The notes beneath the pieces were generated by a model. It was not told the origin of the DNA. It searched no databases and saw nothing but the letters and a program-made list of their open reading frames with translations. Position numbers and translations under genes: made by a program. Below, in pieces: positions 1,960 through 55,927 of a stretch of DNA of 64,000 nt. How positions within the stretch are numbered: the stretch's first letter is position 1; every line of letters begins with the position of its first letter. Origin of the DNA: Bordetella petrii (lineage in GTDB: Bacteria > Pseudomonadota > Gammaproteobacteria > Burkholderiales > Burkholderiaceae_B); contig WMBV01000005.1 in assembly GCA_017745595.1 (NCBI GenBank), positions 1 through 64,000 of the forward strand. Direction: 5' to 3'.

Positions 1960-2050
1960 GGTGTCTGGCTCCCGCAGGGTGTCAGACACCGAAATGCCAA
2001 GTCAGTGTCGGCACGTCTAAGTGTCTGGCACCCTGACGGGAGCCGGACAC
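1960..2050. repeat. Paired dispersed palindrome, locus 1
   Basis: Two copies of the about 30-bp palindrome found across the window, at 1960-1990 and 2021-2050, start to start 60 bp. Each has arms GTGTCTGG / GTCAGACAC or GTGTCTGG / CCGGACAC around a CCC...GGG core. A decayed third copy follows at about 2098-2125 (GTCCGCCCTTCGGGAGCC). The flanking genes run in the same direction. Confidence 0.85.
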
Positions 2051-2157
2051 CTTCCTGATACACCTGCAAGACACGCAATCAGCAAAGGGTTCCCCCCGGT
2101 GTCCGCCCTTCGGGAGCCGGGCATCTGGCGCACAGCCGCCATACGCCAGTTCGGGGC

Positions 2158-2190
2158 ACGCGACGCGCACCGCCATGGTGCGCGTCGCGT
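2158..2190. other. Perfect 14-bp inverted repeat (hairpin)
   Basis: ACGCGACGCGCACC at 2158-2171 is exactly complementary to 2177-2190 with a 5-base loop (GCCAT). No U-rich run follows on either strand, so it is not a classical intrinsic terminator. It lies 141 bp before the TorF-like gene and could be an RNA structure or a protein-binding site. It is unrelated in sequence to the dispersed palindrome. Confidence 0.75.
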
Positions 2191-2331
2191 ATCCGCCGCC
2201 GTCCGCGCCGGGCAGGGCGAGTTGGCATGAAAGGTGCTTGATGCAGAGCGAGCCGGCGGTTTTTCATCGCCACCGGCCGCTCCGGACCGGCGATCTGCCG
2301 GCATCCCGTCCTTACGCACAGGATCCGCATC

Positions 2332-3084
2332 ATGAAAAGCCCGTTGCTCGTCTTGCCCGCGGCGCTATGCGCCGCTTTCGCCACCGTCGTCCATGCCGGG
2401 CCCACCGACCTGGGCGCCGGCTTTTCCCTGAGCGGCAATGCCGCCATCGTCAGCGACTACCGGTTCCGCGGCTACTCGCAGACCGACTTCCGTCCCGCCG
2501 CGCAGGTGGGGGTCGACCTGGCCCACAGTTCGGGCTTCTACCTGGGCAACTGGAACTCGAACGTCTCCGACTACGTTTTTCCCGAAGGCAACCTGGAAAT
2601 GGATTTCTACGGCGGCTGGAAGGGCGAACTGGGCCGTGGCCTGGGCCTGGACCTGGGCGTGCTGTACTACTACTACCCGGGATCGTCGTCGCCCAAAGGC
2701 GGCAGCTACAACAACACCGACCTGTACGTGGGCCTGAGCTACGGCAGCTATACGCTGAAGTATTCGTACACGCCCAGCGATTTCTTCAGCACGCCCGACA
2801 GCAAGGGCACCTGGTACCTGGACGGCACCGCGAATTTCGACCTGGGCGACGGCTGGGGGCTGGTGGCGCACCTGGGCTACCAGAAGCTCAAGCAGCAGGT
2901 GGACATGGATGGCGATGCCATCGGCCATTATGTGGATTACAAGCTGGGGATCACCAAAGACCTGAGCGGCTGGGTGCTGGGCGTGGCGGCCGTGGGCGCC
3001 AGCCAGGACAACTGGCTGCCCACCAAGAACGGCCACCCGTCGGGGCGGCTGGGGGCCGTGTTCTCGGTGGCCCGGGCTTTCTAG
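2332..3084 (+). CDS. TorF family putative outer-membrane porin
   Basis: This 250-residue protein begins with a signal peptide (residues 1-22, cut after VHA). The mature chain is made of alternating aromatic/polar beta strands: SDYRFRGYSQTDFRPA near residue 38, SGFYLGNWNSNV, EMDFYGGWKG, YYYYPGSS, and a C-terminal aromatic residue (VARAF), as in outer-membrane beta barrels. The SDYRFRGxSQ motif is characteristic of the proteobacterial family called TorF or gcw_chp. Role in the outer membrane is inferred from the family; the transported substrate is unknown. AGGA at 2319-2322 supports ATG 2332. It stands alone, with a repeat-rich gap upstream and rlmD 88 bp downstream. Confidence 0.8.
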   Translation: MKSPLLVLPAALCAAFATVVHAGPTDLGAGFSLSGNAAIVSDYRFRGYSQTDFRPAAQVGVDLAHSSGFYLGNWNSNVSDYVFPEGNLEMDFYGGWKGELGRGLGLDLGVLYYYYPGSSSPKGGSYNNTDLYVGLSYGSYTLKYSYTPSDFFSTPDSKGTWYLDGTANFDLGDGWGLVAHLGYQKLKQQVDMDGDAIGHYVDYKLGITKDLSGWVLGVAAVGASQDNWLPTKNGHPSGRLGAVFSVARAF

Positions 3085-3171
3085 GCGGGGGCCTTTCAGG
3101 GCGCCGCGTCGCGCCGCGGCTTCCTCTTTTACAATGCCCGGTTGCCTGAATCAGCCTGGATTGCACAAGAG

Positions 3172-4566
3172 ATGGCCGAAGTACTGAATATCGAATCCCT
3201 GGACCTCGAAGCCCGGGGAATCGCCCGCCGCGACGGCAAGGTCGTGTTCGTCGAGGGCGCGCTGCCCGCCGAGCGGGTCACCGCAACGACGGTGCGGCGC
3301 AAGCCTTCCTACGAAATTGCGCGCGTGGAAGACATCCTGCGGCCGTCGGCCCTGCGGGTGGCGCCGCGCTGCCCGCATTTCGGCGTATGCGGCGGCTGCG
3401 CCATGCAGCACCTCGAGCCCAGCGCGCAGGTGGCCATCAAACAGCGCGCGCTCGAAGACACGTTCTGGCACGTCGGCAAGCTGCGGCCGCAGCGCATGTT
3501 GCCGCCGCTGCACGGCCCCACCTGGGGCTACCGCTACCGGGCCCGCCTGTCGGTGCGCGTGGTGCCCAAAAAGGGCGGCGTGCTGGTGGGGTTCCACGAA
3601 CGCAAAAGCAGCTACGTGGCCGACATGCGCGAATGCCATGTGTTGCCGCCGCATGTCAGCCGCATGCTGATGCCGCTGCGCGCCATGATCGCGGCCATGT
3701 CCGCGCCCACGCGCATGCCGCAGATCGAGGTGGCGCTGGGCGATGGCGTCACCGTGCTGGTGCTGCGCCATCTCGAGCCGCTTACCGACGGCGACCTGGC
3801 GGTACTGCGGCAGTTCGCCGCGCAGCACGGCGTGCAGTGGTGGCTGCAGCCCAAGGGCCCCGATACCGTGCACCCCCTGGACCCCGCGCATGCCGACACG
3901 CTGGCCTACACCATGCCCGAGTTCGGCCTGCGCATGCCGTACCGGCCCACCGATTTCACCCAGGTCAACCACGCCATCAACCGCACGATGGTATCGCGCG
4001 CGCTGATGCTGCTGGACGTGCAGCCCGAAGACCGCGTGGCCGACCTGTTCTGCGGGCTGGGCAATTTCACACTGCCATTGGCCACGCGCGGCCGCGTCGC
4101 CGTGGGCGTCGAAGGCAGCAAGGCACTGACCGACCGCGCCCTGGCCGCGGCCGCGCAACATGGCCTGGCCGGCCGCACCGACTTCGCCACGCTGAACCTG
4201 TTCGAGATCGATGTCGAATGGTTGCGCGGCCTGGGCTATTTCGACCGCATGCTCATCGACCCCCCGCGCGAAGGCGCGCAGGCGGTGGCGCAGGCGCTGG
4301 CGCTGCTCGCTCCCGAAGAGCGGCCGCGCCGCATCGTGTACGTGTCCTGTAATCCCGCCACGCTGGCGCGCGACGCCGCCATCATGGTCCACGAGGGCGG
4401 CTATGCGCTCAAGAGCGCGGGCGTCATCAATATGTTCCCGCATACCGGACACGTGGAATCGATCGCGGTGTTCGAATCGCTGCCGGCCGAAGACGTGCTG
4501 GCGGCACAGGAAAAGGCCCGCTGCAAAGACGAAGACGCGGCCGCCCAGGACCAGGCCGCCGCATAG
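3172..4566 (+). CDS. rlmD: 23S rRNA (uracil(1939)-C(5))-methyltransferase
   Basis: The 464-residue protein has an N-terminal TRAM-like segment followed by an iron-sulfur cluster motif (C67, C73, C76 in [10 protein letters not shown], with a later Cys in MRECHVLPP). The catalytic domain has the SAM-binding loop [14 protein letters not shown], the DPPREGA motif and the catalytic cysteine in [12 protein letters not shown]. This arrangement defines the RumA/RlmD group, which uses S-adenosylmethionine to methylate U1939 of 23S rRNA in the cytoplasm. ATG 3172 fits the conserved start (MAEVL); an in-frame extension to 3142 has no support. The gene ends 34 bp from the convergent cueR. Confidence 0.93.
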
Positions 4567-4600
4567 CGGCGCGGCCCGGGCCATCGCGTTCAAGTCGCGC

Positions 4601-4996
4601 TCAGGCCGCGCCGCCGCCCAGTTCTTCGATGATGGGGCATTCGGGGCGGCCGTCGCCATGGCAATGACGCGCCAGGTGCCGCAGCGTGTCCGCCATTTGC
4701 TGCAGTTCGGCGGCCTTGCGTTCCAGGCCGGCCACGTGGCTGAGCGCGATGCGCTTGACGTCCGCGCTGGCGCGGCCGCGGTCCTGCCACAACGCCAGCA
4801 GTTCATGCATCTGCTCCACCGAAAACCCCAGGTCGCGCGCGCGGCGCACGAAGCGCAGGGTGTGCAGGTCGTTGTCGCTGTACACGCGATAGCCGGCGCC
4901 GGTGCGCGTGGCCGGGCCGATCAGCCCGATGCTTTCGTAGTAGCGGATCATCTTGGCCGAAATGCCCGATGCTTGCGCGGCTTGTCCGATATTCAT
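4601..4996 (-). CDS. cueR: Cu(I)-responsive MerR-family regulator CueR
   Basis: This 131-residue protein opens with the MerR winged-helix DNA-binding domain ([20 protein letters not shown]), then a dimerisation helix, then the metal loop CHGDGRPEC with two cysteines seven residues apart, the CueR/HmrR signature for Cu(I), Ag(I) or Au(I). It would twist promoters with a 19-bp spacer and activate copper export. It overlaps the upstream copA by four bases and is co-transcribed with it, so it controls its own synthesis through the copA promoter. Two matching operators lie between copA and copZ. Confidence 0.92.
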
Positions 4997-7302
4997 GTCT
5001 GGGCTCCGGTGGCATGGGCGGCCGCCGCCGTGGCGGCCGGGCTGGCGGGACGATAAGCGCGCAGGCGCAGCGCGTTGCCCACCACGAATACGCTCGACAG
5101 CGCCATGGCGCCCGCCGCGAACACCGGCGACAGCTGCAATCCGAAGGCCGGATACAGCGCGCCGGCCGCCAGCGGAATCAGGGCGGCGTTGTAGGCAAAC
5201 GCCCAGAACAGGTTCTGCCGGATATTGGCCAGCGTGGCGCGGCTAAGCCCGATGGCATTGGGCACGCCCTGCAGGTCGTCGGCCATCAGCACGACCGATG
5301 CCGCTTCGATCGCCACGTCGGTGCCGGTGCCGATGGCAATGCCGATGTCGGCGGCGGCCAGCGCCGGGGCATCGTTGATGCCGTCGCCCACGAAGGCCAG
5401 GCGGCGTCCGCCCGCGCGCAGCTCGTCGATGGCCGCGACCTTGCCGTCGGGCAGCACCTCGGCGCGCACCTCGTCGATGCCCAATTGCCGCGCCACGGCG
5501 CGCGCCGTCAGGGCATTGTCGCCGGTGATCATGGCCGTCTGCACGCCCAGGGCATGCAGGGCCGCGATAGCGGCCGCGGCCGAGGGCTTGAGCGGATCGC
5601 TCACTGCCACCAGCGCGGCGGCGCGGCCGTCCACCGCCACGTATACCGGCGTCTTGCCCGCCGCGCCCCAGTCGGCGGCGAGGTCGCCGAACACGTCCAG
5701 GTCGACGCCTTCCTGGGCCATGAGCCGGGCGGCGCCCGCCACGATGCGGCGGCCCTCTACGCTGGCCCGCACTCCCGCGCCGGTAATGGCCTGGAAATCC
5801 GCGGCGCGCCCGGTAGGCAGCCCGCGCTCGCGCGCCGCCGCCACGATGGCCAGGGCAATGGGGTGTTCAGACCGCTCTTGCACCGCGGCCAGCCAGCCCA
5901 GCACCTGGTCGCCGTCGAAGCCCGGCGCGGCCCGCAGGTCGGTGAGCGTGGGCTTGCCCAGCGTCAGCGTGCCGGTCTTGTCGAACGCCACCACGTCCAC
6001 GTCGCGCAGCGATTGCAGGGCGTCGCCCTGGCGGAACAAGACCCCCAGGTCGGCGGCGCGGCCGGTGCCCACCATGATCGACGTCGGCGTGGCCAGGCCC
6101 ATGGCGCATGGGCAGGCGATGATCAGCACCGCCACGGCGTTGACCAGCGCGTGCGGCAGGGCCGGCGCGGGCCCCCAGGCCAGCCAGGCCGCGAAGGTCA
6201 GCAGCGCGATCGCCATGACGGCGGGCACGAACCAGGCCGTGACCTGGTCGACCACCGCCTGGATGGGCAGCTTCGCGCCCTGGGCCGCCTGCACCATGCG
6301 GATGATGCGGGCCAGCATGGTGTCGGCGCCAGTGTGCGTGACGCGCATCGTGAAGCTGCCCGACGTGTTCAGCGTGCCGCCGGTGGCGCGCATGCCGGCG
6401 CTTTTTTCCACCGGCATGGGTTCGCCCGTCAGCATCGATTCGTCGATATACGAGCTGCCCTCGATGATGTCGCCATCGATGGGAACCTTTTCGCCAGGGC
6501 GCACCAGCACCTGTTCGCCGCGCCGCACCTGTTCGATCGGCACGTCGAGCGCCTGCCCGTCGCGCAGCACGCGCGCGGTGCGCGGCTGCAGGCCGATCAG
6601 GCGCTTGATGGCGGCGCCCGTGCGGCCCTTGGCGCGCGCTTCCAGCATGCGCCCCAGCAGGATCAGCGTGACGATGACGGCGGCCGCCTCGTAATAGACG
6701 TGCCGCGCGTTCTCGGGCAGCCATTGCGGCGCGAAGGTGGCCACCGTCGAATAGGCCCAGGCCGCGCCGGCGCCCATGGCGACCAGCGAATTCATTTCGG
6801 GCGCGAACCGGGCCAGGGCCGCCAGCCCCTTGCTGAAAAACACCCGGCCCGGCCAGGCCAGCACCACCGTGGTCAGTGCAAATTGCAGCAGCCAGCTGTT
6901 GTGCGTGCCCAGGCGGCTGGCTACCCAGTGATGCACGGCCGGAAACGCGTGCGAGCCCATTTCCAGTGCGAAGACGGGCAGCGTCAGCAGCAGGGCGGTC
7001 AGGAAGGCGCGGCGCAGGTTGCGCGCTTCGTCGGCGCGGGCCTGTTCCTGGCGGGCCTCGTGGCCGTCCTGCGCGGCAATGGGTTGCGCCGCATAGCCGA
7101 CGCGGGCCACGGCCGCCACCAGCGCCTGGGCGTCGGCGCCCGGTTCGTGGTCGACCTGGGCCCGCTCGGTCGCGAGATTGACGCGGGCCGCGCCCACCCC
7201 GGGCACCGCCGCCAGGGCTTTTTCGACCCGCTTCACGCACGAGGCGCAGGTCATGCCTTCAATGGCGAGTTCTGTCTGGATGGAAGAAGAGGGGGCATGC
7301 AT
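4993..7302 (-). CDS. copA: Cu(I)-exporting P1B-type ATPase
   Basis: The 769-residue protein has one N-terminal heavy-metal-associated domain with GMTCASC (C19, C22), then membrane helices, the copper-conducting CPC motif (about residue 397, [12 protein letters not shown]), the phosphorylated aspartate in [11 protein letters not shown] (about residue 439), the HP motif (SEHPIA) and GDGINDAP. This is a complete P1B-1 ATPase that uses ATP to pump Cu(I) out of the cytoplasm. Many homologues carry two metal domains; this one has a single one. It is followed with overlap by cueR and sits opposite copZ. A CueR-type promoter lies just upstream (7332-7362). Confidence 0.95.
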
Positions 7303-7331
7303 GGGATTGCTCCGGCAAGGAATATGCGGGC

Positions 7332-7362
7332 AGTATCATCCTTCCCATGATGGGAAGATCAA
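7332..7362 (-). promoter_or_regulatory. CueR-type promoter of copA-cueR
   Basis: On the minus strand: -35 TTGATC (7357-7362), a 19-bp spacer holding the dyad CTTCCCATCATGGGAAG, and -10 GATACT (7332-7337). A 19-bp spacer with a central dyad is the hallmark of MerR-family activated promoters. CueR is encoded in the operon it would drive. Confidence 0.8.
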
Positions 7363-7376
7363 GGCCCATTATAGGC

Positions 7377-7407
7377 TTGACTTTGCCATCATGGGAAGGT
7401 TTAAGCT
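7377..7407 (+). promoter_or_regulatory. CueR-type promoter of copZ
   Basis: On the plus strand: -35 TTGACT (7377-7382), a 19-bp spacer TTGCCATCATGGGAAGGTT (7383-7401), and -10 TAAGCT (7402-7407). The dyad matches that of the copA promoter, so one regulator should switch on both divergent units. The copZ start is 42 bp downstream. Confidence 0.8.
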
Positions 7408-7448
7408 GGGTTCCAATGCGATTGCGCAGGTTTTCACAGGAGCCTTCC

Positions 7449-7652
7449 ATGACTTTCCAGTTCAACGTGCCCGACATGTCTTGCGGCCACTGCGTCAGCA
7501 CCATCACCCAGGCCGTGCAGCAGGCGGTGCCCGGGGCCAGCGTCAGCATCGACCTGGCCGCGCGCCGCGTCAGCGTCGATAACGCGGCGGCGGCCGAGCC
7601 GGTGCGCGCCGCCATTGCCGACGCGGGCTATGACGCCCAACTGGTGGCATAA
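7449..7652 (+). CDS. copZ: Copper chaperone CopZ (heavy-metal-associated domain)
   Basis: This 67-residue protein is a single heavy-metal-associated domain with the Cu(I) site MSCGHC near residue 10 and the beta-alpha-beta-beta-alpha-beta pattern. I use ATG 7449, which follows the CueR-type promoter; an in-frame extension upstream would read through that promoter. It would carry Cu(I) in the cytoplasm and hand it to CopA. It faces copA across 146 bp containing two CueR sites. An inverted repeat 17 bp past the stop probably ends the transcript. Confidence 0.9.
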   Translation: MTFQFNVPDMSCGHCVSTITQAVQQAVPGASVSIDLAARRVSVDNAAAAEPVRAAIADAGYDAQLVA

Positions 7653-7668
7653 CGCAGGCCAGGCCGGG

Positions 7669-7690: not shown

Positions 7691-7725
7691 TATCAATTAA
7701 TTAAAATAATTAAATTAGATTTATT

Positions 7726-8559: not shown

Positions 8560-8758
8560 GGTGTCTGGCTCCCGCAAGGGTGCCTGAAGTGAAAGTCCCA
8601 CCCCCGAAGCGCTGCGCGCTTCCCCCTCAAGGGGGCGACGCTGGCGGACCGGCAGAGCCGGCTCCGCGGCGTCCCCGATCGGGCCGCATCTTTCATCCCG
8701 GGCGGGTCGCGCGGCCTGCGGTCGCCAGGTGTCTGACTCCCGCAGGGTGTCGGACACC
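8560..8758. repeat. Dispersed palindrome, locus 2 (half copy plus full copy)
   Basis: A half copy, GTGTCTGGCTCCCGCAAGGG, at 8560-8580 is joined directly to a different dispersed element. A full copy with arms GTGTCTGAC / GTCGGACAC is at 8728-8758. The two are about 168 bp apart, unlike the 58-61 bp seen elsewhere, consistent with another element having inserted in between. Confidence 0.75.
8581..8621 (+). repeat. Second dispersed repeat, copy A
   Basis: A 41-bp stretch starting TGCCTGAAGTGAAAGTCCC and ending AGCGCTGCGCGCTT recurs in inverted orientation at 55936-55976 with only a few differences. The 3' part contains the small hairpin GCGCTGCGCGC. Both copies directly adjoin the palindromic repeat. 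Confidence 0.75.
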
Positions 8759-10302: not shown

Positions 10303-10393
10303 GGTGTCTGACTCCCGAAGGGTGTCAGACATCGCCACAGGCAGACAGCCGTCTCATTGGCCGGTGTCCGACACCCTTCGGGAGTCGGACACC
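10303..10393. repeat. Paired dispersed palindrome, locus 3
   Basis: Copies at 10303-10332 (arms GTGTCTGAC / GTCAGACA) and 10363-10393 (arms GTGTCCGAC / GTCGGACAC), starts 60 bp apart. They fill the tail-to-tail gap between the flavoprotein gene and glnD, where a bidirectional terminator would be expected. Confidence 0.88.
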
Positions 10394-24807: not shown

Positions 24808-25902
24808 ATGCCGATCCTCCTGGATCCCGCCCGCGCGCCTGCCCTCGACGCACTGCTGGCCGCCGCCAATACCCAGGGGCTCGACTGGCGCATCGAAGCG
24901 GCGGCGGATGTTCCGATGCCGCGCATCCGCGGCATCGGAACCCTGGCCTCGGCCGGGCCCGAAGAAATCAGCTTTCTTACCAACCCGCGCTACCAGAGCC
25001 AGCTGGCCGGTACGCGGGCGGCCGCCATCATCGTCACCCCCGACGCCGCCCAGGCACTGGCGGACAGCCCCGGCGCCCCCGCGTGCGCCCGGGTGGTCTG
25101 CCCCCATCCGTATCTGCTGTATGCCCGCCTGGCGCAATGGTTCGACGCCGCGCGCCGGCCCAAGCTGCCGGCCAGCGTGCATCCGCTGGCCGTCGTGGCT
25201 GCGGACGCCGTCATCGACGACGACGTGCGCATCGGGCCGCATTGCGTGGTGGAATCCGGTGCGCGCGTCGGCCGGGGCAGCACGTTGGGCCCGGGCTGCG
25301 TGATCGGCGCGGGCTCCACGCTGGGCCCCGACTGCCTGCTGCATGCACGGGTTACCCTGTATCCCAACGTGCGCATCGGCGCGCGCGCCATCCTGCATAG
25401 CGGCGTGGTGCTGGGCGCCGACGGCTTCGGCTTCGCGCCCGACCCCATGTTGGGGCAGGGCGCCTGGGGCAAGATTGCCCAATTGGGCGGGGTGCGCATC
25501 GGCGATGACGTCGAAATCGGCGCCAACACCACGATCGACCGCGGGGCGCTCGAAGACACCGACATCGGCGACGGCGTCAAGCTCGACAACCAGATCATGC
25601 TGGGCCACAACGTGCGCGTGGGGGCTCATACCGCCATGGCGGCCTGCGTGGGGGTGGCCGGGTCCACCGTCATCGGGGCGCGCTGCACCATCGGCGGCGC
25701 GGCCATGCTGTCGGGCCACCTGACACTGGCCGACGACGTCCATATTTCGGGCGGCACGGCCGTCACGTCCAGCATTTCGCAGCCGGGCCGCTATACGGGC
25801 GTGTATCCTTACGCCGAACACGGCCAATGGCAGCGCAACGCCGCGGTCATCCAGCAACTGTCACACCTGCGCCGCCGCCTGCGGACGCTGGAAAAAGCCT
25901 GA
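24808..25902 (+). CDS. lpxD: UDP-3-O-(3-hydroxyacyl)glucosamine N-acyltransferase
   Basis: The 364-residue protein has an N-terminal uridine-binding domain (ISFLTNPRYQSQLAGTRAAA region) and a left-handed beta helix of hexapeptide repeats from about residue 115 (VHPLAVVAADAVIDDDVRIG). The likely catalytic histidine is in NQIMLGHNVRVGAHT, about residue 267. It adds the second 3-hydroxyacyl chain in lipid A synthesis. It sits with fabZ, lpxA and lpxB, so most of the early lipid A pathway is made from one operon. Confidence 0.95.
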   Translation: MPILLDPARAPALDALLAAANTQGLDWRIEAAADVPMPRIRGIGTLASAGPEEISFLTNPRYQSQLAGTRAAAIIVTPDAAQALADSPGAPACARVVCPHPYLLYARLAQWFDAARRPKLPASVHPLAVVAADAVIDDDVRIGPHCVVESGARVGRGSTLGPGCVIGAGSTLGPDCLLHARVTLYPNVRIGARAILHSGVVLGADGFGFAPDPMLGQGAWGKIAQLGGVRIGDDVEIGANTTIDRGALEDTDIGDGVKLDNQIMLGHNVRVGAHTAMAACVGVAGSTVIGARCTIGGAAMLSGHLTLADDVHISGGTAVTSSISQPGRYTGVYPYAEHGQWQRNAAVIQQLSHLRRRLRTLEKA

Positions 25903-28998: not shown

Positions 28999-29771
28999 AG
29001 CAGATCACCTCGCGCGACAATCCGGCGTTCAAGCAATTGCAGCGCCAGGCCCGGCATGCGGGGCGCCGCGGCGAGCCCGCCATCCTGGAAGGCGTGCACC
29101 TGTGCCAGGCCTGGCTGGCCCACGCCGGCGCGCCGGCATGGGCCGTATTCGACGCCGACCGGCTGCCGCATCCCGAACTGGCGGCCCTGCTGGCGGCCGT
29201 GCCGCCGCGGCAGGTGCTGCTGCTGCCCGAGCGGCTGCTGCGCCTGCTCGAAACGGTCGAGACCGGGCAGGGGGTGCTGTTCGTGGTGGACCCGCCGGCG
29301 GTCGACTTGCCGGCGCGGCTGGATGAGCCCATGGTGTGGCTGGACCGCGTGCAAGACCCCGGCAACGTCGGCACCATTCTGCGCATTTGCGCGGCGGCGG
29401 GCATCGGCCGCGTATTGCTTTCGGCCGGCTGCGCGGCGGCGTGGTCGCCCAAGGTGCTGCGCGGCGGCCAGGGCGCCCATTTCGCGCTGACGCTGCATGA
29501 ACACGCCGACCTGCAGGCCTGCGCCGGGCGGCTCGAGGTGCCGCTGGCCGTGACCACCCTGGACGGCGCGCAAGACCTGTACGCGACGCCGTTGCCGCCC
29601 GCCTGCGCCTGGGTGTTCGGCCACGAAGGGCAGGGCGTCGCGCCCGCCCTGCAGCAGGCGGCCGCCCTGCGCGTACGCATCGACCACGCGGCCGCGGTGG
29701 AATCCTTGAACGTCGCGGTGGCCGCGGCCCTGTGCCTGTTCGAGCAGCGCCGGCAGGCCCGGCAGATGTAG
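28995..29771 (+). CDS. SpoU/TrmH-family RNA methyltransferase
   Basis: This 258-residue protein has a short N-terminal substrate-binding domain ([16 protein letters not shown]) and the SPOUT methyltransferase motifs: [21 protein letters not shown] (motif 1), VFGHEGQGV (motif 2) and [12 protein letters not shown] (motif 3), which form the knotted SAM site. It probably methylates a ribose 2'-OH in rRNA or tRNA; the exact nucleotide cannot be told from sequence. It is coupled to rnhB by a four-base overlap and is the last gene of the long operon. Confidence 0.88.
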
Positions 29772-29790
29772 ACCCGGCAGATATCCGGCG

Positions 29791-29826
29791 GGTGTCAGAC
29801 ACCTGACATCGCGGGTGGCAGACACC
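29791..29826. repeat. Dispersed palindrome, locus 4 (rearranged copy)
   Basis: A 36-bp variant with GGTGTCAGACACCTGACATC followed by GGTGGCAGACACC. It looks like two half copies fused. It occupies the 60-bp tail-to-tail gap between the RNA methyltransferase gene and ppsR. Confidence 0.7.
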
Positions 29827-29831
29827 TGGCC

Positions 29832-30822: not shown

Positions 30823-33186
30823 ATGTCGTATGTCGTTTTGTTCGAGCAGCTCCGCATGACGGATGTGGACTCGGTAGGAGGCAAGAACGCATCGCTAGGT
30901 GAAATGATCAGCCAGCTGTCCGGCGCGGGTGTCCGCGTACCGGGCGGCTTCGCCACGACCGCCGAAGCCTTCCGCGACTTCCTCAAGGCGTCGGGTCTGG
31001 ATCAGCGCATCGCCACCCGCCTCAGCACCCTCAATCCCGAAGACGTGCGCGAACTGGCTTCAGCCGGCGCCGAGATCCGCCAATGGATCGTCGAGGCTCC
31101 GTTCTCGCCCGAGTTCGAACAGCAGATCCGCACCGCCTTTGCCGCGCTCGATGCCGACGGCAAGGGCTCGTTCGCCGTGCGCTCGTCGGCCACCGCCGAA
31201 GACCTGCCCGACGCATCGTTCGCCGGACAGCAGGAAACCTTCCTGAACGTCGTGGGCATCGACGATGTGCTCGACAAGATCCGCCACGTGTTCGCGTCGC
31301 TGTACAACGATCGCGCCATTTCTTACCGCGTGCACAAGGGTTACGCGCACGCCGAAGTGGCCCTGTCGGCCGGTGTGCAGCGCATGGTGCGCTCCGACAA
31401 GGGCAGCGCCGGCGTGATGTTCACCATCGACACCGAATCCGGCTTCCAGGACGTGGTGTTCATCACCTCGTCGTACGGGCTGGGCGAAACCGTGGTGCAG
31501 GGCGCCGTCAACCCCGACGAGTTCTACGTCTTCAAGCCCACGCTGGAAAAAGGCCTGTACCCCATCGTCAGCCGCCGCATCGGCTCGAAGCTGATCAAGA
31601 TGGAATTCGACCCCGAGCGTCCCGAAGGCCGGGCCGTGCGCACGGTCGACGTGCCGGTGTCCGAGCGCAACCGCTATTCGCTCAATGATGACGAAGTCGC
31701 CGAACTGGCGCGCTACGCGGTCATCATCGAAAAGCACTATGGCCGCCCCATGGACATCGAATGGGGCCGCGACGGCGTCGACGGCAAAATCTACATCCTG
31801 CAGGCACGGCCCGAAACCGTGAAGTCGCAGCAGGGCGCCAACGACGTGCAGCAGCGCTATCGCCTCAAGGCCACCGGCCAGGTGCTGGTCACGGGCCGCG
31901 CCATCGGCCAGAAGATCGGCGCCGGCCCGGTGCGCGTGGTGGCCGATATTTCCGAAATGGACAAGGTCCAGGCCGGCGACGTGCTGGTCACCGACATGAC
32001 CGACCCCAACTGGGAACCGGTCATGAAGCGCGCCTCGGCCATCGTCACCAACCGGGGCGGGCGCACGTGCCACGCCGCCATCATCGCCCGCGAACTGGGC
32101 ATCCCGGCGGTGGTGGGTTGCGGCGAGGCCACCGATCTGCTGAAAGAAGGCCAGGCGGTCACGGTGTCGTGCGCCGAAGGCGACGAAGGCCGCATTTACG
32201 ACGGCCTGATCGAAACCGAAGTCGAAGAAGTCCGCCGCGGCGACATGCCGCCCATCGACGTCAAGATCATGATGAACGTGGGCAACCCGCAGCTGGCGTT
32301 CGATTTCGCCCAGATCCCCAACGCGGGGGTGGGCTTGGCGCGCCTGGAATTCATCATCAACAACAATATCGGCATTCATCCCAAGGCGGTGCTCGACTAC
32401 CCCAACGTCGATGCCGAGCTGAAAAAGGCGGTGGAATCGGCGGCCCGCGGCTACGCCAGCCCGCGCGCTTTCTTCGTCGAAAAACTGGCCGAAGGCATTG
32501 CCACCATCGCGGCGGCGTTCTGGCCCAAGTCGGTCATCGTGCGCATGTCCGACTTCAAGTCGAACGAATACCGCAAGCTGGTGGGCGGGTCGCGCTACGA
32601 GCCCGAAGAAGAAAACCCCATGCTGGGCTTCCGCGGCGCCTCGCGCTACATCGCGGCGGAATTCGCCGAATGCTTCCGCATGGAATGCGAAGCGCTGAAG
32701 AAAGTGCGCGATGAAATGGGCCTGACCAACGTCGAGATCATGGTGCCGTTCGTGCGCACCGTGGGCCAGGCGTCCCGGGTGGTCGACCTGCTGGCCGCCC
32801 ACGGCCTGGCGCGCGGCGAAAACGGCCTGAAGCTGATCATGATGTGCGAAGTACCGTCCAACGCGCTGCTGGCCGACGAGTTCCTGCAGTATTTCGACGG
32901 CTTCTCTATCGGTTCGAACGACATGACCCAGCTGACCCTGGGCCTGGACCGCGATTCGGGCATGGAGCTGCTGGCGGCCGATTTCGACGAGCGCGACGAT
33001 GCCGTGAAATTCATGCTGCGCCGGGCCATCAAGGCCTGCCTGGCTGCCAACAAGTACGTCGGCATCTGCGGCCAGGGCCCCAGCGACCACCCCGATTTCG
33101 CCCAGTGGCTCAAAGACGAGGGCATCCTGTCCATGTCGCTGAACCCCGATACCGTGGTCGACACCTGGCAGCGCCTGGCCAAGTAA
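30823..33186 (+). CDS. ppsA: Phosphoenolpyruvate synthase
   Basis: The 787-residue enzyme has an N-terminal ATP-grasp domain ([32 protein letters not shown]), the phosphohistidine domain with [17 protein letters not shown] near residue 410, and the C-terminal PEP/pyruvate barrel ([26 protein letters not shown]). It converts pyruvate, ATP and water to PEP, AMP and phosphate for gluconeogenesis. AAGGTGA at 30811-30817 supports ATG 30823. The regulatory threonine lies beside the catalytic His (RTCH), the site targeted by PpsR in the family. Confidence 0.96.
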
Positions 33187-33232
33187 GCCCACGCGAGGCA
33201 ACTCGCGGGGCAGGTCGAGGTGTCTCGGGGCA

Positions 33233-33352
33233 GGTGTCTGACTCCCGCAGGGTGTCAGACGCCGATGTGCGCAACGGATATTGCCTATTTCGGGGTCTGA
33301 CACCCTGCGGGAGTCAGACCCTGGCCGAGGCACCCTGCGAAGCCAGACACCG
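33233..33352. repeat. Paired dispersed palindrome, locus 5, with a fragment
   Basis: Copies at 33233-33263 (arms GTGTCTGAC / GTCAGACGC) and 33292-33321 (arms GGTCTGAC / GTCAGACC), starts 59 bp apart, then a fragment at 33333-33352 (CCCTGCGAAGCCAGACACC). They lie between convergent ppsA and the amidotransferase gene. Confidence 0.87.
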
Positions 33353-33373
33353 GGCCTGTGCCCGTGCCGCGGC

Positions 33374-35667: not shown

Positions 35668-35754
35668 GGTGTCAGGCTCCGCAGGTGCCTGACACCGTAC
35701 GATTGGAACAGCCGAGGCACACAGCGGTATCAGGCACCTGCGGAGCCTGACACC
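35668..35754. repeat. Paired dispersed palindrome (short form), locus 6
   Basis: Copies at 35668-35696 and 35726-35754, starts 58 bp apart. These are the 29-bp form with arms GTGTCAGGC / GCCTGACAC and the core TCCGCAGGT. The gap lies between convergent SPFH and smpB genes. Confidence 0.9.
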
Positions 35755-47605: not shown

Positions 47606-47636
47606 GGTGCCTGACACCCTGCGGGAGTCAGACACC
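47606..47636. repeat. Dispersed palindrome, locus 7 (single copy)
   Basis: One 31-bp copy with arms GTGCCTGAC / GTCAGACAC and the core ACCCTGCGGGA, between convergent ankyrin and TPR-like genes. No second copy follows at the usual distance. Confidence 0.85.
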
Positions 47637-48303: not shown

Positions 48304-48307
48304 GCGC

Positions 48308-49323: not shown

Positions 49324-49414
49324 GGGGTCAGGCACCCTGCGGGAGCCTGACCCCAGGCCTGAAATCTGCCGGGTGCTGCCAGGTGTCTGACTCCCCGCAG
49401 GGGTGTCAGACACC
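49324..49414. repeat. Paired dispersed palindrome, locus 8
   Basis: Copies at 49324-49354 (arms GGGGTCAGGC / GCCTGACCCC) and 49382-49414 (arms GTGTCTGAC / GTCAGACAC with core TCCCCGCAGGGG), starts 58 bp apart. This is the only pair lying between divergent genes. Confidence 0.88.
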
Positions 49415-50921: not shown

Positions 50922-50971
50922 AGAAAGGGGGGGTCTTCACGACCGCCAGGTGCGTGGCTCTGTGTCGCCCA

Positions 50972-51060
50972 GGTGTCTGGCTCCGCAGGTGCCAGACACC
51001 GGTCCAGGCAGCGGCCGTTTTAGCGGTACGGTGTCTGACACCCTTCGGGAGTCAGACACC
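50972..51060. repeat. Paired dispersed palindrome, locus 9
   Basis: Copies at 50972-51000 (29-bp form, arms GTGTCTGGC / GCCAGACAC) and 51030-51060 (31-bp form, arms GTGTCTGAC / GTCAGACAC, core ACCCTTCGGGA), starts 58 bp apart. The pair lies between convergent gdhA and the RsiV-like gene and mixes the two forms. Confidence 0.9.
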
Positions 51061-51078
51061 TGGCTATCTGGCGGCTTT

Positions 51079-51906
51079 TCATGCGGGCGGCAGGAATTCC
51101 GGCCGCAGGATGCCCCGCAATTCCGCGTAGGGAATCAGCAGTTCGGGCTCGCCGTGCGAATACGGCGCGATCGAGTATGCGTCGTACTTGATCACCATGC
51201 CCTCGGCCGTCAAGGCAAAATTATTGCTTTCCTGGAACGGCCACATGCGGTCGTAGGCCTGGGGATCGCGCTGCGCGTCCGGATTGTGCGTAAGCCAGGC
51301 GGCGTGGGCGCGGCGCAGGGCCTCGACAAACGCCGGCCGCGCGCCGGGTTGCAGCGCTTCGTCCAGCGCCAGCACGCGCGACTGGTCGCGCTGCCAGTTC
51401 AGATATTGCGTGGCGGGAATGCCGTGGGCGGCGCCCGTCAGGTACTGGCCGGTGTGCAGCTCGACCGCCACGATATTGCCGACGACGGCTTTGACGCTGG
51501 CCTTGAATACCGTGCTGTCGCGCGATTGCGCGGTTTGCCAGAAATACTGCGTGTACTCGGACAGGGTGCGGTACGGGCGGGGCCGATTGGGATCCACGCC
51601 GGTCATGTAGGCCAGCACGTGGTCGACCAGTTCGCTCAGCTTCGGGATGTCGGGGAAGGCCACGCTGTCGATCTCGATGCGCGGACATTGGCCCTCGCAG
51701 CCGGGCTTGGTGCCTTGCCATTGGATTTTCTCGACGGCCAGCCCGCCGACTTGCGTGTCGGTAGAGGTGGGCTGCGGCGTCGACGAGGGCAGGCTGATGG
51801 TGTCGGACGGGCCGCTGGCGCAGCCGGCCAGCGCGGCCAGCGCGGCGCCCGCCAGGGCCGCGCGGATGCGCCGCGGCGTGTGGGAAAAGGCAGAGTGGAT
51901 TCGCAT
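51079..51906 (-). CDS. RsiV-family (DUF3298) lipoprotein
   Basis: The 275-residue protein has a lipoprotein signal with ALAALAGC (lipidated Cys at about residue 29). The C-terminal half matches the DUF3298/RsiV domain: HTGQYLTGAAHGIPATQYLNWQ near residue 160 and a final AEGMVIKYDAYSIAPYSHGEPELLIPYAELRG. In Bacillus, RsiV is a lysozyme-sensing anti-sigma factor, but this protein has no sigma partner and is outer- or inner-membrane anchored, so it is probably a free envelope protein. Start ATG 51906 overlaps the ligase stop (TGATG), supporting this choice. Confidence 0.82.
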   Translation of the reverse strand: MRIHSAFSHTPRRIRAALAGAALAALAGCASGPSDTISLPSSTPQPTSTDTQVGGLAVEKIQWQGTKPGCEGQCPRIEIDSVAFPDIPKLSELVDHVLAYMTGVDPNRPRPYRTLSEYTQYFWQTAQSRDSTVFKASVKAVVGNIVAVELHTGQYLTGAAHGIPATQYLNWQRDQSRVLALDEALQPGARPAFVEALRRAHAAWLTHNPDAQRDPQAYDRMWPFQESNNFALTAEGMVIKYDAYSIAPYSHGEPELLIPYAELRGILRPEFLPPA

Positions 51907-52685
51907 CAAGGTACCAGGGCTGTCCATTCGGGGCTGGAGAATTTGTCGTGGGCCTGCCGCCGCGCCAGTTCCAGCGTGGCGTCGGCCAGCTGCACCGGCG
52001 CCAGCGGAGCCAGGCTGCGGAACGTCTGCAGCATGCGTTCGATGATGGTGTCGCGCGCCAGGCCGGTCTGGCTGCGCAGCGGGTCGACGCGCTTTTTGGC
52101 GCTGGTCGTGCCTTTGTCAGACAGCTTTTCGCGGCCGATGCGCAAGACTTCCACCATTTTATCGGCGTCGATGTCGTACGACATAGTGACATGGTGCAGT
52201 ACCGCGCCGGCGCGGCGCGCCTGGGCGGCGCCGCCGATCTTGCCGCCTTCCGAGGCAATGTCGTTCAGGGGCTGGTACCAGGCCTTGATGCCCAGGTCGT
52301 GCAGCGCGCGCACGACCCAGCCGTCCAGGAATTCGTACGACTGCTGGAAGGTCATGCCCTGCACCAGGGCCTGCGGCACGCTGAGCGAGTAGGTGATGGT
52401 ATTGCCGGGCTCGACGAACATCGCGCCGCCGCCGCTGACCCGGCGCACCACGGTGACGCCGTGGCGCTGCGCGCCGGCCGGATCGACCTCGTTTTTCAGC
52501 GACTGGAAGCGGCCGATGATGACGGCGGGCTCGGACCATTCCCAGATGCGCAGCGTGGGCGGGCGCAGCCCCGCGCCGACCTCGTCGGTGATGACGGCAT
52601 CCAGCGCCATGTGCAGCGCGGGCGGCTGCGGGCCTTCGTGGATGAGCTGCCACGAATAGTCGTTCCAATGGGTGCGCGTGCTCAT
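51906..52685 (-). CDS. Lipoate-protein ligase A, catalytic domain
   Basis: The 259-residue protein belongs to the biotin/lipoate ligase fold: RIWEWSEPAVIIGRFQSLKNEVD near residue 47, the conserved RRVSGGGAMFVEPGNTITYSL and the lysine of KIGGAAQARRAGAVLHHVTM, which attacks lipoyl-AMP. It would activate and attach lipoate or octanoate to 2-oxoacid dehydrogenases and GcvH. It lacks the small C-terminal domain found in E. coli LplA; that domain is encoded by the overlapping upstream gene (ATGA overlap). The two together look like a split ligase. Confidence 0.85.
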   Translation of the reverse strand: MSTRTHWNDYSWQLIHEGPQPPALHMALDAVITDEVGAGLRPPTLRIWEWSEPAVIIGRFQSLKNEVDPAGAQRHGVTVVRRVSGGGAMFVEPGNTITYSLSVPQALVQGMTFQQSYEFLDGWVVRALHDLGIKAWYQPLNDIASEGGKIGGAAQARRAGAVLHHVTMSYDIDADKMVEVLRIGREKLSDKGTTSAKKRVDPLRSQTGLARDTIIERMLQTFRSLAPLAPVQLADATLELARRQAHDKFSSPEWTALVP

Positions 52686-52957
52686 GCCAGGGCCCTGCGG
52701 ATAGTGATGGCCACTGACTCGGGCGTAAAACCGAACAGCTCGGCTTCGCGCGGCAGCCCCGCCTGGACGGCCTGGGCCAGGCGTGTTTCGTCGGCGTCGG
52801 CCGGCAGGCCGCACAGGGCGCGGTTGATGCTTTCCAGCGCCTCGGGGGGTTCAAGAAAGAAATCGCCGCTGAGGCAGACGTTGGCCAGCTTGCCGTTTTC
52901 GACATCGAGATCGATCACGACCAGCTTTCCGCCGGGGACTTTGTATTCGCCATGCAT
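52682..52957 (-). CDS. Lipoate ligase accessory domain protein (LplB-like)
   Basis: This 91-residue protein begins MHGEYKVPGGKLVVIDLDVENGKLANV and continues CLSGDFFLEPPEALESINRAL, matching the C-terminal accessory domain of lipoate ligases. In Thermoplasma acidophilum a separate LplB of this type is needed by LplA to make the lipoyl-AMP intermediate. Here it directly precedes and overlaps the catalytic subunit gene, so the pair is expected to form a two-subunit ligase. Confidence 0.82.
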   Translation of the reverse strand: MHGEYKVPGGKLVVIDLDVENGKLANVCLSGDFFLEPPEALESINRALCGLPADADETRLAQAVQAGLPREAELFGFTPESVAITIRRALA

Positions 52958-52974
52958 GGGTATGGGACTCCGGA

Positions 52975-53445
52975 TCAGGCGGCCAGTTCCTGCTTCATGC
53001 CTTCATGCGTGGCCGTGAAACCCAATGATTCATAAAAACGCCGGGCATCGCCCCGGGCCTTGTCGGTAGTCAGCTGTACCAGGCCGCAGCCGCGCGCGCG
53101 GCACTGGCCGATGGCCCATTCGAACATGGCGCGGCCGGTGCCGGCGCCGCGCTCGCCGGCGGCCACGCGCACGCTTTCGATCTGCCCGCGCCACAATCCG
53201 CGGCGCGACAGGCCGGGAATGAAGCTGAGCTGCAGGCAGCCCACCACCACGCCCTGGCGCACGGCCACGGCCAGCAATTGGTTGGGGTCGCGGTCGATGG
53301 CCTCGAACGCGCGCACGTAGCACGCGCTGGCGGGCACCGACGGGTCTTCGCGCGTGCTGCCCAATACGTCGTCGGCCAGCAGGGCCACGATGGCATCCAG
53401 GTCGCCTGCGCCGGCGCGGCGATACTGCAATGAGGTGTCGGGCAT
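52975..53445 (-). CDS. GNAT-family N-acetyltransferase
   Basis: The 156-residue protein is a single acetyltransferase domain: YRRAGAGDLDAIVALLADDV at the start, GCLQLSFIPGLSRRGLWRGQIESVRV in the middle, and the acetyl-CoA pyrophosphate loop RGAGTGRAMFEWAIGQ near residue 105, then LTTDKARGDARRFYESLGF. The acceptor substrate cannot be told. It lies 17 bp upstream of the ligase accessory gene on the same strand. Confidence 0.85.
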   Translation of the reverse strand: MPDTSLQYRRAGAGDLDAIVALLADDVLGSTREDPSVPASACYVRAFEAIDRDPNQLLAVAVRQGVVVGCLQLSFIPGLSRRGLWRGQIESVRVAAGERGAGTGRAMFEWAIGQCRARGCGLVQLTTDKARGDARRFYESLGFTATHEGMKQELAA

Positions 53446-53452
53446 GGGCGGC

Positions 53453-54151
53453 TCAGCGTACCTGCTGGGCGGTCTGGCCGAACAGGATGCGGCGCGATTC
53501 ATCGGTGTGCACCGACGGCGTGCTGTTAATTTCCTGGGCCTTGGCGTAGGCACTCTGGGTGGCGGGGCGGTTCTGGATGGCGTGGAACCAGCGCTGCAGG
53601 TGCGGGAAATCGTTCAGGTCTTGGCCCTGCCGTTCGTGCGGCACGATCCAGGGGTACGCCGCCATGTCGGCGATCGAATATTCGCCCGCCACATATTCGC
53701 GGTCGGCCAGGCGCTTGTTCAGAACGCCGTACAGGCGATTGGTTTCGTTGACATAGCGGTCGATGGCATAGGGAATGCGTTCTTGCGCATAGGCCGAGAA
53801 ATGGTGGTTCTGGCCGGCCATGGGCCCCAGGCCGCCCATCTGCCAGAACAGCCATTGCAGGGTTTCGGCGCGGCCGCGCAAGTCTTGCGCGATGAACCGG
53901 CCGGTTTTTTCCGCCAGGTACAGCAAGATGGCGCCCGACTCGAACAGCGAAACCGGCGTGCCGCCGTCGGCGGGCGCCTGGTCGACGATGGCGGGGATGC
54001 GGTTGTTCGGCGCAATGGCCAGGAAGTCGGGCTGGAACTGTTCGCCTTTGCTGATATTGATGGGAACGATCCGGTACGGCAGGCCGGCTTCCTCGAGGAA
54101 CATCGTGATCTTGTGGCCGTTGGGCGTGGTCCAGTAATAAAGATCGATCAT
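53453..54151 (-). CDS. Glutathione S-transferase, YfcG-like disulfide-bond oxidoreductase
   Basis: The 232-residue protein starts MIDLYYWTTPNGHKITMFLEE, the Nu-class GST motif of YfcG and YghU, whose TPNG threonine and asparagine hold glutathione in place of a catalytic Tyr/Ser/Cys. PNNRIPAIVD and FESGAILLYLAEKTGRF form the thioredoxin-fold G-site, and a helical domain follows. Enzymes of this type reduce disulfides with glutathione. It precedes the GNAT gene by seven bases. Confidence 0.9.
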   Translation of the reverse strand: MIDLYYWTTPNGHKITMFLEEAGLPYRIVPINISKGEQFQPDFLAIAPNNRIPAIVDQAPADGGTPVSLFESGAILLYLAEKTGRFIAQDLRGRAETLQWLFWQMGGLGPMAGQNHHFSAYAQERIPYAIDRYVNETNRLYGVLNKRLADREYVAGEYSIADMAAYPWIVPHERQGQDLNDFPHLQRWFHAIQNRPATQSAYAKAQEINSTPSVHTDESRRILFGQTAQQVR

Positions 54152-54280
54152 GGCGCGGGTCCTTGGGCAGTGGCGCCGCGGCACAGGCGGCGACGGAATG
54201 TCCATGATAGCGGGTCGCCGCGGCGGATGGCCCCCAAGCCCCGGCCGGCAAGGGGGATTTCGCGGCGGCGGCGCGGGCGG

Positions 54281-55210
54281 TCAGCTCGAGCGGGCCCGGC
54301 CGGCACAGGCTTGCCCGCACGGTGCGCCGCGGCGCGCGGGCAGCCGCCAGTTCAGGCTGACGCCCGCCGCGGCCAGCAGTATCAGCCCGACACCGGCCAC
54401 CTGCGAACCCGCCAGGCGCTGCCCATAGACCAGGTAATCCAGCATGATGGCGACCGCCGGATAGATGAACGCCAGCGCCGCCACCGACGTGGTGGGCAGC
54501 TTCTGGATGGCCGAGTACAGCAGAATGTAGGTCAGGCTGGTATGCAGCAAGCCGATGGCCACCAGCATGCCCCATTGGGCCGGCGCATGGGGCAGGGCGC
54601 CGAAATCCACCATGGGCAGCAGCAGCAGGGCTCCCAGGCTGACCTGCACCAGCGCCAGGACGTGCGGCGCGATGTGCCTGAGCCGTTTCACGATGATCGA
54701 GGTCACCGCGTACAGCCCGCCGGCGCCCAGCGCCAGCGCCAGGCCATGCAGGTAGCCGCCCGCCTGCGCCAGCTCGGCCGGCTCGATGCGCAACACCAGC
54801 AGCAGCCCGCCGAACGCCATCACCGACCAGCCCAGTTTGCCCAGGGTAGGGCGTTCGCCCAGGAACACCGCGCCCAGCGCGATCAGGAAAAACGGCTGGA
54901 AGTTGTAGACCGCCGTGGCCAGCGAGATGGACGCCAGCCGGTAGGCCGAGAACAGCAATACCCAGTTCAGCACGATGGCCACCCCGGCCATCAGGGTCCA
55001 GCCCAGCGTGGCGCGAGTGAAGATGCCCGGGCGCAGCAGGCCACGCGCCAGGCAATAGGCCAGCAGGCCCAGCGCGCCGAAGACACAGCGGAAGAACACG
55101 ACATTCCAGGCGCTTTGCCCGGACTCGAGCACGAACACGCCCACCGTGCCCGAAATCGTCATGGCGGCGGCCATTTGCGCCAGGCCGCCGCGCTCGCTTG
55201 CGGTTTTCAT
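54281..55210 (-). CDS. EamA/DMT-family transporter
   Basis: The 309-residue protein has ten predicted membrane helices in two EamA repeats (first about residues 10-135, second about 150-290) with AVYNFQPFFLIALGAVFLGERPT and VAALAFIYPAVAIMLDYLVYGQRL, the paired repeat signatures. DMT proteins of this kind usually export amino acids or metabolites. AGGAG before ATG 55210 supports the start. It is divergent from an Lrp-type regulator gene, which suggests control by an amino acid. Confidence 0.87.
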   Translation of the reverse strand: MKTASERGGLAQMAAAMTISGTVGVFVLESGQSAWNVVFFRCVFGALGLLAYCLARGLLRPGIFTRATLGWTLMAGVAIVLNWVLLFSAYRLASISLATAVYNFQPFFLIALGAVFLGERPTLGKLGWSVMAFGGLLLVLRIEPAELAQAGGYLHGLALALGAGGLYAVTSIIVKRLRHIAPHVLALVQVSLGALLLLPMVDFGALPHAPAQWGMLVAIGLLHTSLTYILLYSAIQKLPTTSVAALAFIYPAVAIMLDYLVYGQRLAGSQVAGVGLILLAAAGVSLNWRLPARRGAPCGQACAGRARSS

Positions 55211-55289
55211 GGATGACTCCTGCGATCCGCACCGGCCATCGGTGCGCATGGAGAAATTATCCCAGGCGATTCTTTGCCATAATATATTT

Positions 55290-55300
55290 CACCAATGGTG
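55290..55300. promoter_or_regulatory. Palindrome in the transporter/Lrp intergenic region
   Basis: CACCAATGGTG is an 11-bp palindrome around a central base, in an AT-rich 124-bp gap between the EamA gene and the divergent Lrp gene. It is a candidate Lrp-type operator, but the match to known sites is weak. Confidence 0.35.
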
Positions 55301-55334
55301 TTTTTATTATTTTGCCTTTGTTTGGTGGGCTTTT

Positions 55335-55814
55335 GTGGCAACTAACCTAAGTATCGAAAATAGCGTGCTGGATGGCATCGACCGGCGCCTGGTGCTGGCG
55401 CTGACGGCCAACGCGCGCACGACCACGGCCGACCTGGCGCGCCAGGTCGGCATGTCGGCGCCCAGCGTGGCCGACCGCCTGCGGCGGCTGGAAGAATCGG
55501 GCGTGGTGCGCGGCTATACGCTGGATGTAGACCCGGCGGCGCTGGGATACACGCTGACGGCCATCGTGCGCATCCGGCCGTTGCCGGGGCAACTGCGCAA
55601 GGTCGAAAAGCTGATCGCAAGCATCGGCGAGTTCGTCGAATGCGACAAGGTCACCGGCGACGACTGCTTCATTGCGCGGCTGCTGCTGAAATCCATTGCC
55701 GATCTCGACGGCGTGCTGGACCGCGTTACCGAATATGCGGAAACCAATACCGCCATCGTGAAATCGAGCCCCGTGCGGCGCCGCTTGCCGCCCTTGCAGG
55801 CGGCGCGAAGCTAG
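55335..55814 (+). CDS. Lrp/AsnC-family transcriptional regulator
   Basis: The protein of about 159 residues has an N-terminal helix-turn-helix (LDGIDRRLVLALTANARTTTADLARQVGMSAPSVADRLRRLEESGVV) and a C-terminal RAM ligand-binding domain (AIVRIRPLPGQLRKVEKLIASI, VTGDDCFIARLLLKSIADLDGVLD). No ATG fits; GTG 55335 gives a normal length, with GTG 55365 as a shorter alternative. Divergent from an amino-acid-type exporter, its likely target. Confidence 0.85.
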   Translation: MATNLSIENSVLDGIDRRLVLALTANARTTTADLARQVGMSAPSVADRLRRLEESGVVRGYTLDVDPAALGYTLTAIVRIRPLPGQLRKVEKLIASIGEFVECDKVTGDDCFIARLLLKSIADLDGVLDRVTEYAETNTAIVKSSPVRRRLPPLQAARS

Positions 55815-55837
55815 ATCGCGAAGCTAGGTCGGAGCTA

Positions 55838-55927
55838 GGTGTCCGACTCCCGACAGGGTGTCGGACACCGAAGTGGGCTGGATGCCTTTCATACAGGCGG
55901 TGTCAGGCACCTGCGGAGCCTGACACC
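55838..55927. repeat. Paired dispersed palindrome, locus 10
   Basis: Copies at 55838-55869 (arms GTGTCCGAC / GTCGGACAC) and 55899-55927 (short form, arms GTGTCAGGC / GCCTGACAC), starts 61 bp apart, between convergent Lrp and glutathione peroxidase genes. The second dispersed repeat follows nine bases later. Confidence 0.88.

Follow-up and report, generated by a model that had tools for sequence, protein, structure and literature searches.

A RAYT-linked family of REP doublets in the Bordetella group

What are the paired palindromes that recur between the genes of Bordetella petrii, and what keeps the two partners of a pair at a nearly constant distance? The question is raised by positions 1 to 64,000 of contig WMBV01000005.1 (assembly GCA_017745595.1, forward strand), a stretch of 64,000 nucleotides referred to here as the window. 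An earlier note, made from its letters alone, had described a family resembling the repetitive extragenic palindromic (REP) sequences and bacterial interspersed mosaic elements (BIMEs) of enterobacteria, and had proposed to search the whole genome for the palindrome, to tabulate spacing and flanking gene orientation, and to look for a REP-associated tyrosine transposase (RAYT). We are confident that the palindromes are REP elements, often arranged as inverted doublets with a spacer of 28–30 bp in units of about 90 bp that resemble REP doublets forming hairpins (REPINs), and that they are likely to spread as single-stranded DNA, copied and integrated by the RAYT whose gene they flank. The assignment to a REP/BIME-like family is borne out: a RAYT is present and flanked by the elements, spacing is peaked and convergent gaps are enriched.

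The RAYT gene and the abundance of the palindromes

The genome to which the window belongs (G000; 6.1 Mb in 68 contigs) contains one match to a Y1 transposase, a gene for a protein of 202 amino acids at L031:1261-1869 on the minus strand, with palindromes directly on both sides. The protein scores 86.4 bits with the NCBIfam model NF047646 (REP_Tyr_transpos; cut-off 80) and stays under the cut-off of the IS200 model. Its sole sequence match in the PDB at E <= 0.001 is 4er8, which is also the best fold match (E 4.3e-10) of its AlphaFold model (mean predicted local distance difference test score, pLDDT, 80.9). Two histidines and Tyr 121, which we take to be the HUH motif and the tyrosine motif, are invariant in 12 of 12 aligned sequences. 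On the strength of family model, motifs and predicted fold the protein is a RAYT, and cleavage of its cognate single-stranded REP is predicted.

Six of nine genomes of the genus carry a RAYT gene, and in all six it is flanked on both sides by the palindrome family, with variants that differ between genomes. These genomes hold 601, 321, 178, 56, 54 and 14 matches to a pattern drawn from the long form of the element in G000 (both strands summed). Two of the three genomes without RAYT have no match; the third, G123, has 153. Among 200 genomes of the bacterial family the repeat is numerous only in this genus, one other genome having a single match at three mismatches, and three Achromobacter RAYTs (65–67% identical) are not flanked by it, with two weak matches only, at 5–6 mismatches. 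The RAYTs named in records of Bordetella sp. BOR01, B. petrii MY10, B. genomosp. 2 and B. genomosp. 7 have the flanking elements of G171, G156, G081 and G053; these records probably represent the same genomes and hence are not independent evidence. Relatives of the RAYT in other genera of the bacterial family (L196 and L199, 41% and 39% identical) have palindromes of the GGGGTCAGACCCC and GGTCAGACAC types at their sides, which share GTCAGAC.

The 601 long-form matches in G000 were obtained at <=3 mismatches, at which the reversed pattern gave none. A sample of 864 kb, made up of 800 kb of G000 and the window, contains 116 copies of 29–33 bp, 71 of which fit the degenerate pattern perfectly; with the reversed control there were two matches, each at six mismatches. 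By these counts (601 vs 0 and 116 vs 2) a chance origin of the family is rejected. Neighbours within 300 bp of each other are predominantly inverted in one order (38 "+-", 12 "-+", 7 "--" and 4 "++"), and 26 "+-" pairs have a spacer of 28–30 bp, as compared with 0.1 on average and never more than 3 when elements were placed at random in 1000 independent trials. The same spacer length peaks in samples of two relatives, G141 (23 of 29 "+-" pairs) and G123 (3 of 3). An apparent plus-strand excess in G141, which would have suggested a replication-strand bias, vanished on direct count (43 plus and 49 minus in 480 kb). That genome also contains a tandem array (L125:8127-9651) of units of 181 or 204 bp, each with one REP doublet except the last, which shows one element only.

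Doublets in the window and the anatomy of the element

Scanning the window with the pattern GGTGYCNGRC-core-GYCNGRCACC (<=6 mismatches) yielded 17 copies, to which a repeat search added a relic at 29773. The about 18 copies at ten loci given in the earlier note are thus recovered, as are the start-to-start distances of its seven pairs (60, 60, 59, 58, 58, 58 and 61), which were identical on rescan. Two core classes occur, a long one (TCCCGNAGGGT, with variants that exceed it by one or two bases) and a short one (TCCGCAGGT). In both, a T stands opposite a T just outside the core, which makes the palindrome imperfect and gives it a direction. The prevailing order within a pair is a T-core followed by an inverted T-core ("+-"), the pair at 49324/49382 being reversed. 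The elements are as follows.

1960..1990, plus strand: REP long form, T orientation, left half of a doublet, spacer 29 bp
2020..2051, minus strand: REP long form with 12-base core, right half of the doublet, co-directional gap
8560..8591, plus strand: degenerate REP with 4 mismatches
8728..8758, plus strand: single REP long form, in the gap shared with the 8560 element
10303..10333, plus strand: REP long form, doublet, convergent gap, spacer 29 bp
10363..10393, minus strand: REP long form, partner of 10303
29773..29806, strand unassigned: REP relic in a convergent gap of 60 bp
33233..33263, plus strand: REP long form, doublet, convergent gap, spacer 28 bp
33292..33322, minus strand: REP long form, partner of 33233
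35668..35696, plus strand: REP short form, doublet, spacer 29 bp
35726..35754, minus strand: REP short form, partner of 35668
47606..47636, minus strand: single REP long form, convergent gap
49324..49354, minus strand: REP long form, first of the reversed (-+) pair, divergent gap, spacer 27 bp
49382..49414, plus strand: REP form with 13-base core, partner of 49324
50972..51000, plus strand: REP short form, mixed doublet, spacer 29 bp
51030..51060, minus strand: REP long form, partner of 50972
55838..55869, plus strand: REP long form with 12-base core, mixed doublet, convergent gap, spacer 29 bp
55899..55927, minus strand: REP short form, partner of 55838

A fixed start-to-start distance of 58–61 bp, as the earlier note put it, describes what is measured; the true constant is the spacer of 28–30 bp, and starts shift with the form of the element (29–33 bp). 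Mixing of the two core forms within a pair, also noticed before, extends to 15 of 34 pairs.

The window gave no Rfam matches. A second intergenic repeat of ~90 bp containing CCCCCTCAAGGGGGCGACGCTGGCGGACCGGCAGAGCCGGCTCCGCGGCGTCCCC lies at about 8592-8700 and in gaps of G123 and G171 and is, by eye, unrelated to the palindrome. Strong inverted repeats with arms of 14 bp, likewise unrelated to the REPs, were seen at 24910-24941 (inside a called gene) and 2158-2190.

The T.T mismatch is found in 105 of 109 copies, a number to be read with the scan pattern in mind, which itself favours T.T and allowed <=3 mismatches; the elements that flank the RAYT gene of G081 are fully paired and do not have it. 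At stem pair 7, 50 of 57 distinct elements have a Watson-Crick pair, with T-A, A-T and C-G all present, although only 26.5 would be expected if the two sides varied independently; for stem pair 9 the numbers are 54 of 57 and 30.7. Because its arms covary in this way, each element behaves like a hairpin of its own. Its 5' side is marked by (G)CCA, with frequencies of C and A of 0.81 and 0.86 in 106 copies of G000 and of 0.88 and 0.89 in 95 copies of G141, and its 3' side by a G that is seen in both genomes; either flank is less marked in G053.

The two partners of a doublet, by contrast, do not match each other. They share the arm type in 15 of 34 pairs, where 13.9 are expected, and mirror complementarity of the two spacer sides exceeds its null at only 1 of 10 positions, and there only slightly. 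Once oriented, 36 spacers from three species yielded one asymmetric consensus with 14.0 bits, whereas none of 40 shuffled sets exceeded 6.8 bits (near-duplicates removed; orientation-free fit with 20 restarts for the data and 6 for each null set). Their sequences have diverged from a single asymmetric one, and a fixed length combined with a drifting sequence fits a replicating unit of about 90 bp.

From these features a route of propagation can be envisaged. The RAYT would bind the folded hairpin of the T strand, and the T.T mismatch together with the 5' flank might allow it to tell the strands apart. If the doublet were moved as a unit, the length of the spacer would be kept while its sequence drifts. 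Selection would then purge insertions near promoters and within genes, such that copies are left at gene ends and above all between convergent genes. There the hairpin could be transcribed from either side and may block 3' exonucleases or help termination.

Gene ends, orthologous sites and rival explanations

Gene positions were called with a home-made hexamer caller and no annotation; on contig C2 of G000 only 63% was called coding, and gaps are inflated there. Positions 1-60000 of this contig (L059-L061) have a GC content of 53–59% in five of six 10 kb stretches and of 64% in the sixth, as compared with 67% in the window, and a weak coding signal; the region looks like a horizontally acquired one. 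Of the sampled copies, 115 of 116 are intergenic (25 bp tolerance). When elements were placed at random according to gap length (gaps >=20 bp), 8.8 occupied convergent gaps were expected in the 864 kb and 28 of 101 were found; occupancy was 24 of 565 for co-directional gaps (30.1 expected) and 2 of 98 for divergent ones (15.1 expected). The tabulation of gene orientation thus confirms the enrichment. In the window, seven of ten loci are in convergent gaps, two in co-directional gaps and one in a divergent gap, and our own gene calls agree with the earlier note on the seven. Its further statement that every convergent gap above about 35 bp has a copy holds for the window, where 7 of 7 gaps of at least 60 bp carry one (29772-29831 a relic only) and none of the four gaps of <=34 bp does (34, 27, 22 and 11 bp), but not for the 864 kb, in which a copy is present in 27 of the 66 convergent gaps that measure >=35 bp.

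The sites themselves turn over. At the nine non-relic loci of the window an element within 5 mismatches is absent from 40 of 48 resolved orthologous gaps (hand count), 10 of these 48 comparisons being with two REP-free genomes. The gap at 55814-55970 measures -6 to 37 bp and is empty in 6 of 6 resolved relatives, and at the single element at 47606 none of three resolved relatives has one. Relatives also carry elements in the gaps at 1940, 8518, 10298, 33186, 35636 and 50921, and the gap at 29771, with a relic in the window, holds intact doublets in G123 and G141. The overall pattern is one of turnover rather than of a conserved feature.

Several observations weigh against propagation of the doublets by the RAYT. 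Neither transposition nor cleavage was observed in these sequence data, and the guide GTAG/GTGG expected 5' of the hairpin is absent from the family, the flank being CCA instead. G053 departs from the pattern in more than one respect: its elements have no clear CA flank, its sample contains few "+-" pairs (3, one of them with a 29 bp spacer), and head-to-tail copies prevail. In G123, 153 REP matches stand beside no RAYT match at E <= 1e-10, which makes an orphaned REP population possible there; as this genome has elements at 1940 and 35636, common descent may account for some of the sites. One TGA is present in each of three of the six RAYT matches, among them that of G053, which is 66% identical to the RAYT of G000; in the match at L075, whose flanking elements are common to it and G053, the TGA falls within the first 150 codons. 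Some RAYTs may thus be broken. Singlets, which in a REPIN population should be more degenerate than doublet members, had fewer mismatches (mean 0.30 in 10 singlets vs 0.65 in 66 doublet members), although these numbers are small. Finally, for 3 of 4 doublets predicted RNA folding preferred one long hairpin that joins both partners, even though the partner arms are unmatched.

The REP variant of G053 (L154-L165, L105) often carries a further T.T mismatch in its arm and is mostly arranged head-to-tail.

The fixed distance invites the explanation, raised in the earlier note, that a two-site protein or a cruciform of two hairpins demands it, and that spacing is selected for a host function. The spacer, tight in length (28–30 bp) and variable in sequence, speaks for this, as does the predicted RNA fold, which is long and made of both partners for 3 of 4 doublets. 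However, a two-site protein is not needed to account for the spacing because the spacers have diverged from one sequence, which is explained by common descent of a replicating unit. The cruciform is disfavoured by partner arms that match at chance level and do not covary, and G053 has similar palindromes mostly without the spacing. We therefore consider this explanation very unlikely. Hardly any probability attaches to passive spread, in which recombination or replication slippage would multiply the palindromes and the RAYT would have inserted among them as a bystander. The tandem arrays of G141 (L125, period 181 or 204 bp), the head-to-tail copies of G053 and the RAYT-less copies of G123 would suit it; yet elements stand on either side of the RAYT gene in 6 of 6 genomes that have one, and doublets are found in convergent gaps that in relatives are near 0 bp and empty.

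A stronger competitor, though in our judgement still unlikely, is that the pairs are host-encoded bidirectional transcript-end elements, terminators or exonuclease blocks, which are maintained by selection and whose mobility lies in the past. Their position is in keeping with this: the median distance to the stop codon is 30.5 bp in convergent gaps, and in co-directional gaps the medians are 33.5 bp from the upstream stop and 112.5 bp to the next start. After exclusion of 100 bp before starts, for gaps shorter than 1500 bp, element density remained higher in convergent than in co-directional gaps (3.11 vs 1.32 per kb in G000, 3.00 vs 0.99 in G141 and 2.43 vs 1.17 in G053); operon-internal gaps may be the cause of this remaining excess. 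For two single elements, folding of either strand gave about -16 to -24 kcal/mol. Moreover, a U-tract stem or terminator is present in 5 of 5 resolved relatives at the gap at 1940 and in 6 of 6 at that at 33186, and in the window REPs are found there instead; C11 215641 is alike, with a terminator in 2 of 3 relatives. Against a transcript-end function under selection stand the 40 of 48 orthologous comparisons without element, since they indicate no conserved need for it. U-tracts follow only 5 of 218 REP hairpin ends, compared with 52 of 1191 random intergenic places, a scarcity by which an intrinsic terminator family as a class is rejected. Terminators conserved among relatives (in >=2 and 60% of them) persisted in 2 of 5 gaps with REPs and in 2 of 3 REP-free ones, a comparison without power that derives from 107 gaps of 20–1500 bp, convergent or co-directional, with at least one resolved relative. 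In the five genomes compared, canonical terminators in convergent gaps of >=35 bp showed no clear deficit in REP-rich species (9 of 66 in G000, 14 of 44 in G141, 3 of 22 in G053) relative to REP-free ones (5 of 23 in G015, 4 of 26 in G103), and genome-wide replacement of terminators is not apparent. The bidirectional terminator function put forward in the earlier note is accordingly unproven.

Propagation by the RAYT and a role at transcript ends could be joined in a single scenario. At three gaps the data are suggestive of a replacement of canonical terminators by REPs, which is possible. One may speculate, as a doubtful proposal, that doublets driven by the RAYT and tagged by CCA settle at the ends of convergent genes, serve there as mobile transcript-end modules acting in both directions, and then supplant ancestral U-tract terminators, as in the window at 1940-2331 and 33186-33373.

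Relation to known repeat families

The palindromes form, in the Bordetella group, a RAYT-linked family of REP doublets that displays most of the features of REPs and REPINs and departs from them in the GT[AG]G guide, the matched long hairpin and the divergence of singlets. A palindrome family of Bordetella is hereby tied to a transposase of a named family. In the open-licence literature, searched by title or start of abstract, we found no link of Bordetella palindromic repeats to a RAYT. As far as the relevant passages go, stem-loops of 26 and 30 bp, termed Bor, have been described near coding regions in Bordetellae (Petrillo 2006, PMC1590033), and Bor-1 models comprise 117 bp in B. bronchiseptica and 93 bp in B. 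pertussis, there with 128 copies of which 78 are full (2008, PMC2267715). Genus and stem-loop structure agree with the family studied here, and the 93 bp Bor-1 comes near to our doublet of 91 bp, a likeness by description rather than by sequence; those passages mention neither a RAYT nor a doublet. In the part of Di Nocera 2013 (PMC3733652) that concerns them, Bordetellae are listed among untagged REP-like families without conserved terminal motifs and with no transposase assigned, whereas the elements described here have a RAYT and a conserved CCA/G flank.

Among characterized systems, the REPINs of Pseudomonas fluorescens SBW25, as portrayed in the sections available to us, are inverted GI REPs at a preferred distance of 71 bp (Bertels and Rainey 2011, PMC3116915). 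Common to both are inverted REPs at a preferred distance, a variable spacer, the doublet as replicative unit and the link to a RAYT. In SBW25, however, the spacer sides pair into a long hairpin with common compensatory changes, whereas here partner arms and spacer ends match no better than chance and each REP covaries with itself. The REP/BIME elements of E. coli and their TnpA-REP (structure 4er8) resemble our family, going by the parts of PMC8266576 consulted, in a mismatch conserved in the stem of an imperfect palindrome, a Y1 HUH transposase and pairs of differing REPs. In E. coli REPs, in which the mismatch and GTAG both have roles (PMC8266576), the guide is GTAG and the bulge AA/GC; our family has a CCA flank and a T.T mismatch.

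A RAYT/REP pair with a flank other than GTAG offers an object for biochemistry, and the genus, with its natural RAYT-plus and RAYT-minus species, can serve to distinguish REP doublets that are tolerated at gene ends from working terminators. Such a flank is not without parallel. While a guide tetranucleotide is a common REP feature, the hairpins of class 3 TnpA-Y1 proteins are described, in the portion of PMC6006769 that treats them, as having the foot CnGA. Although CnGA differs from the CCA flank, both systems consist of a Y1 transposase flanked by hairpins that occur in many copies and stand on a foot other than GT[AG]G.

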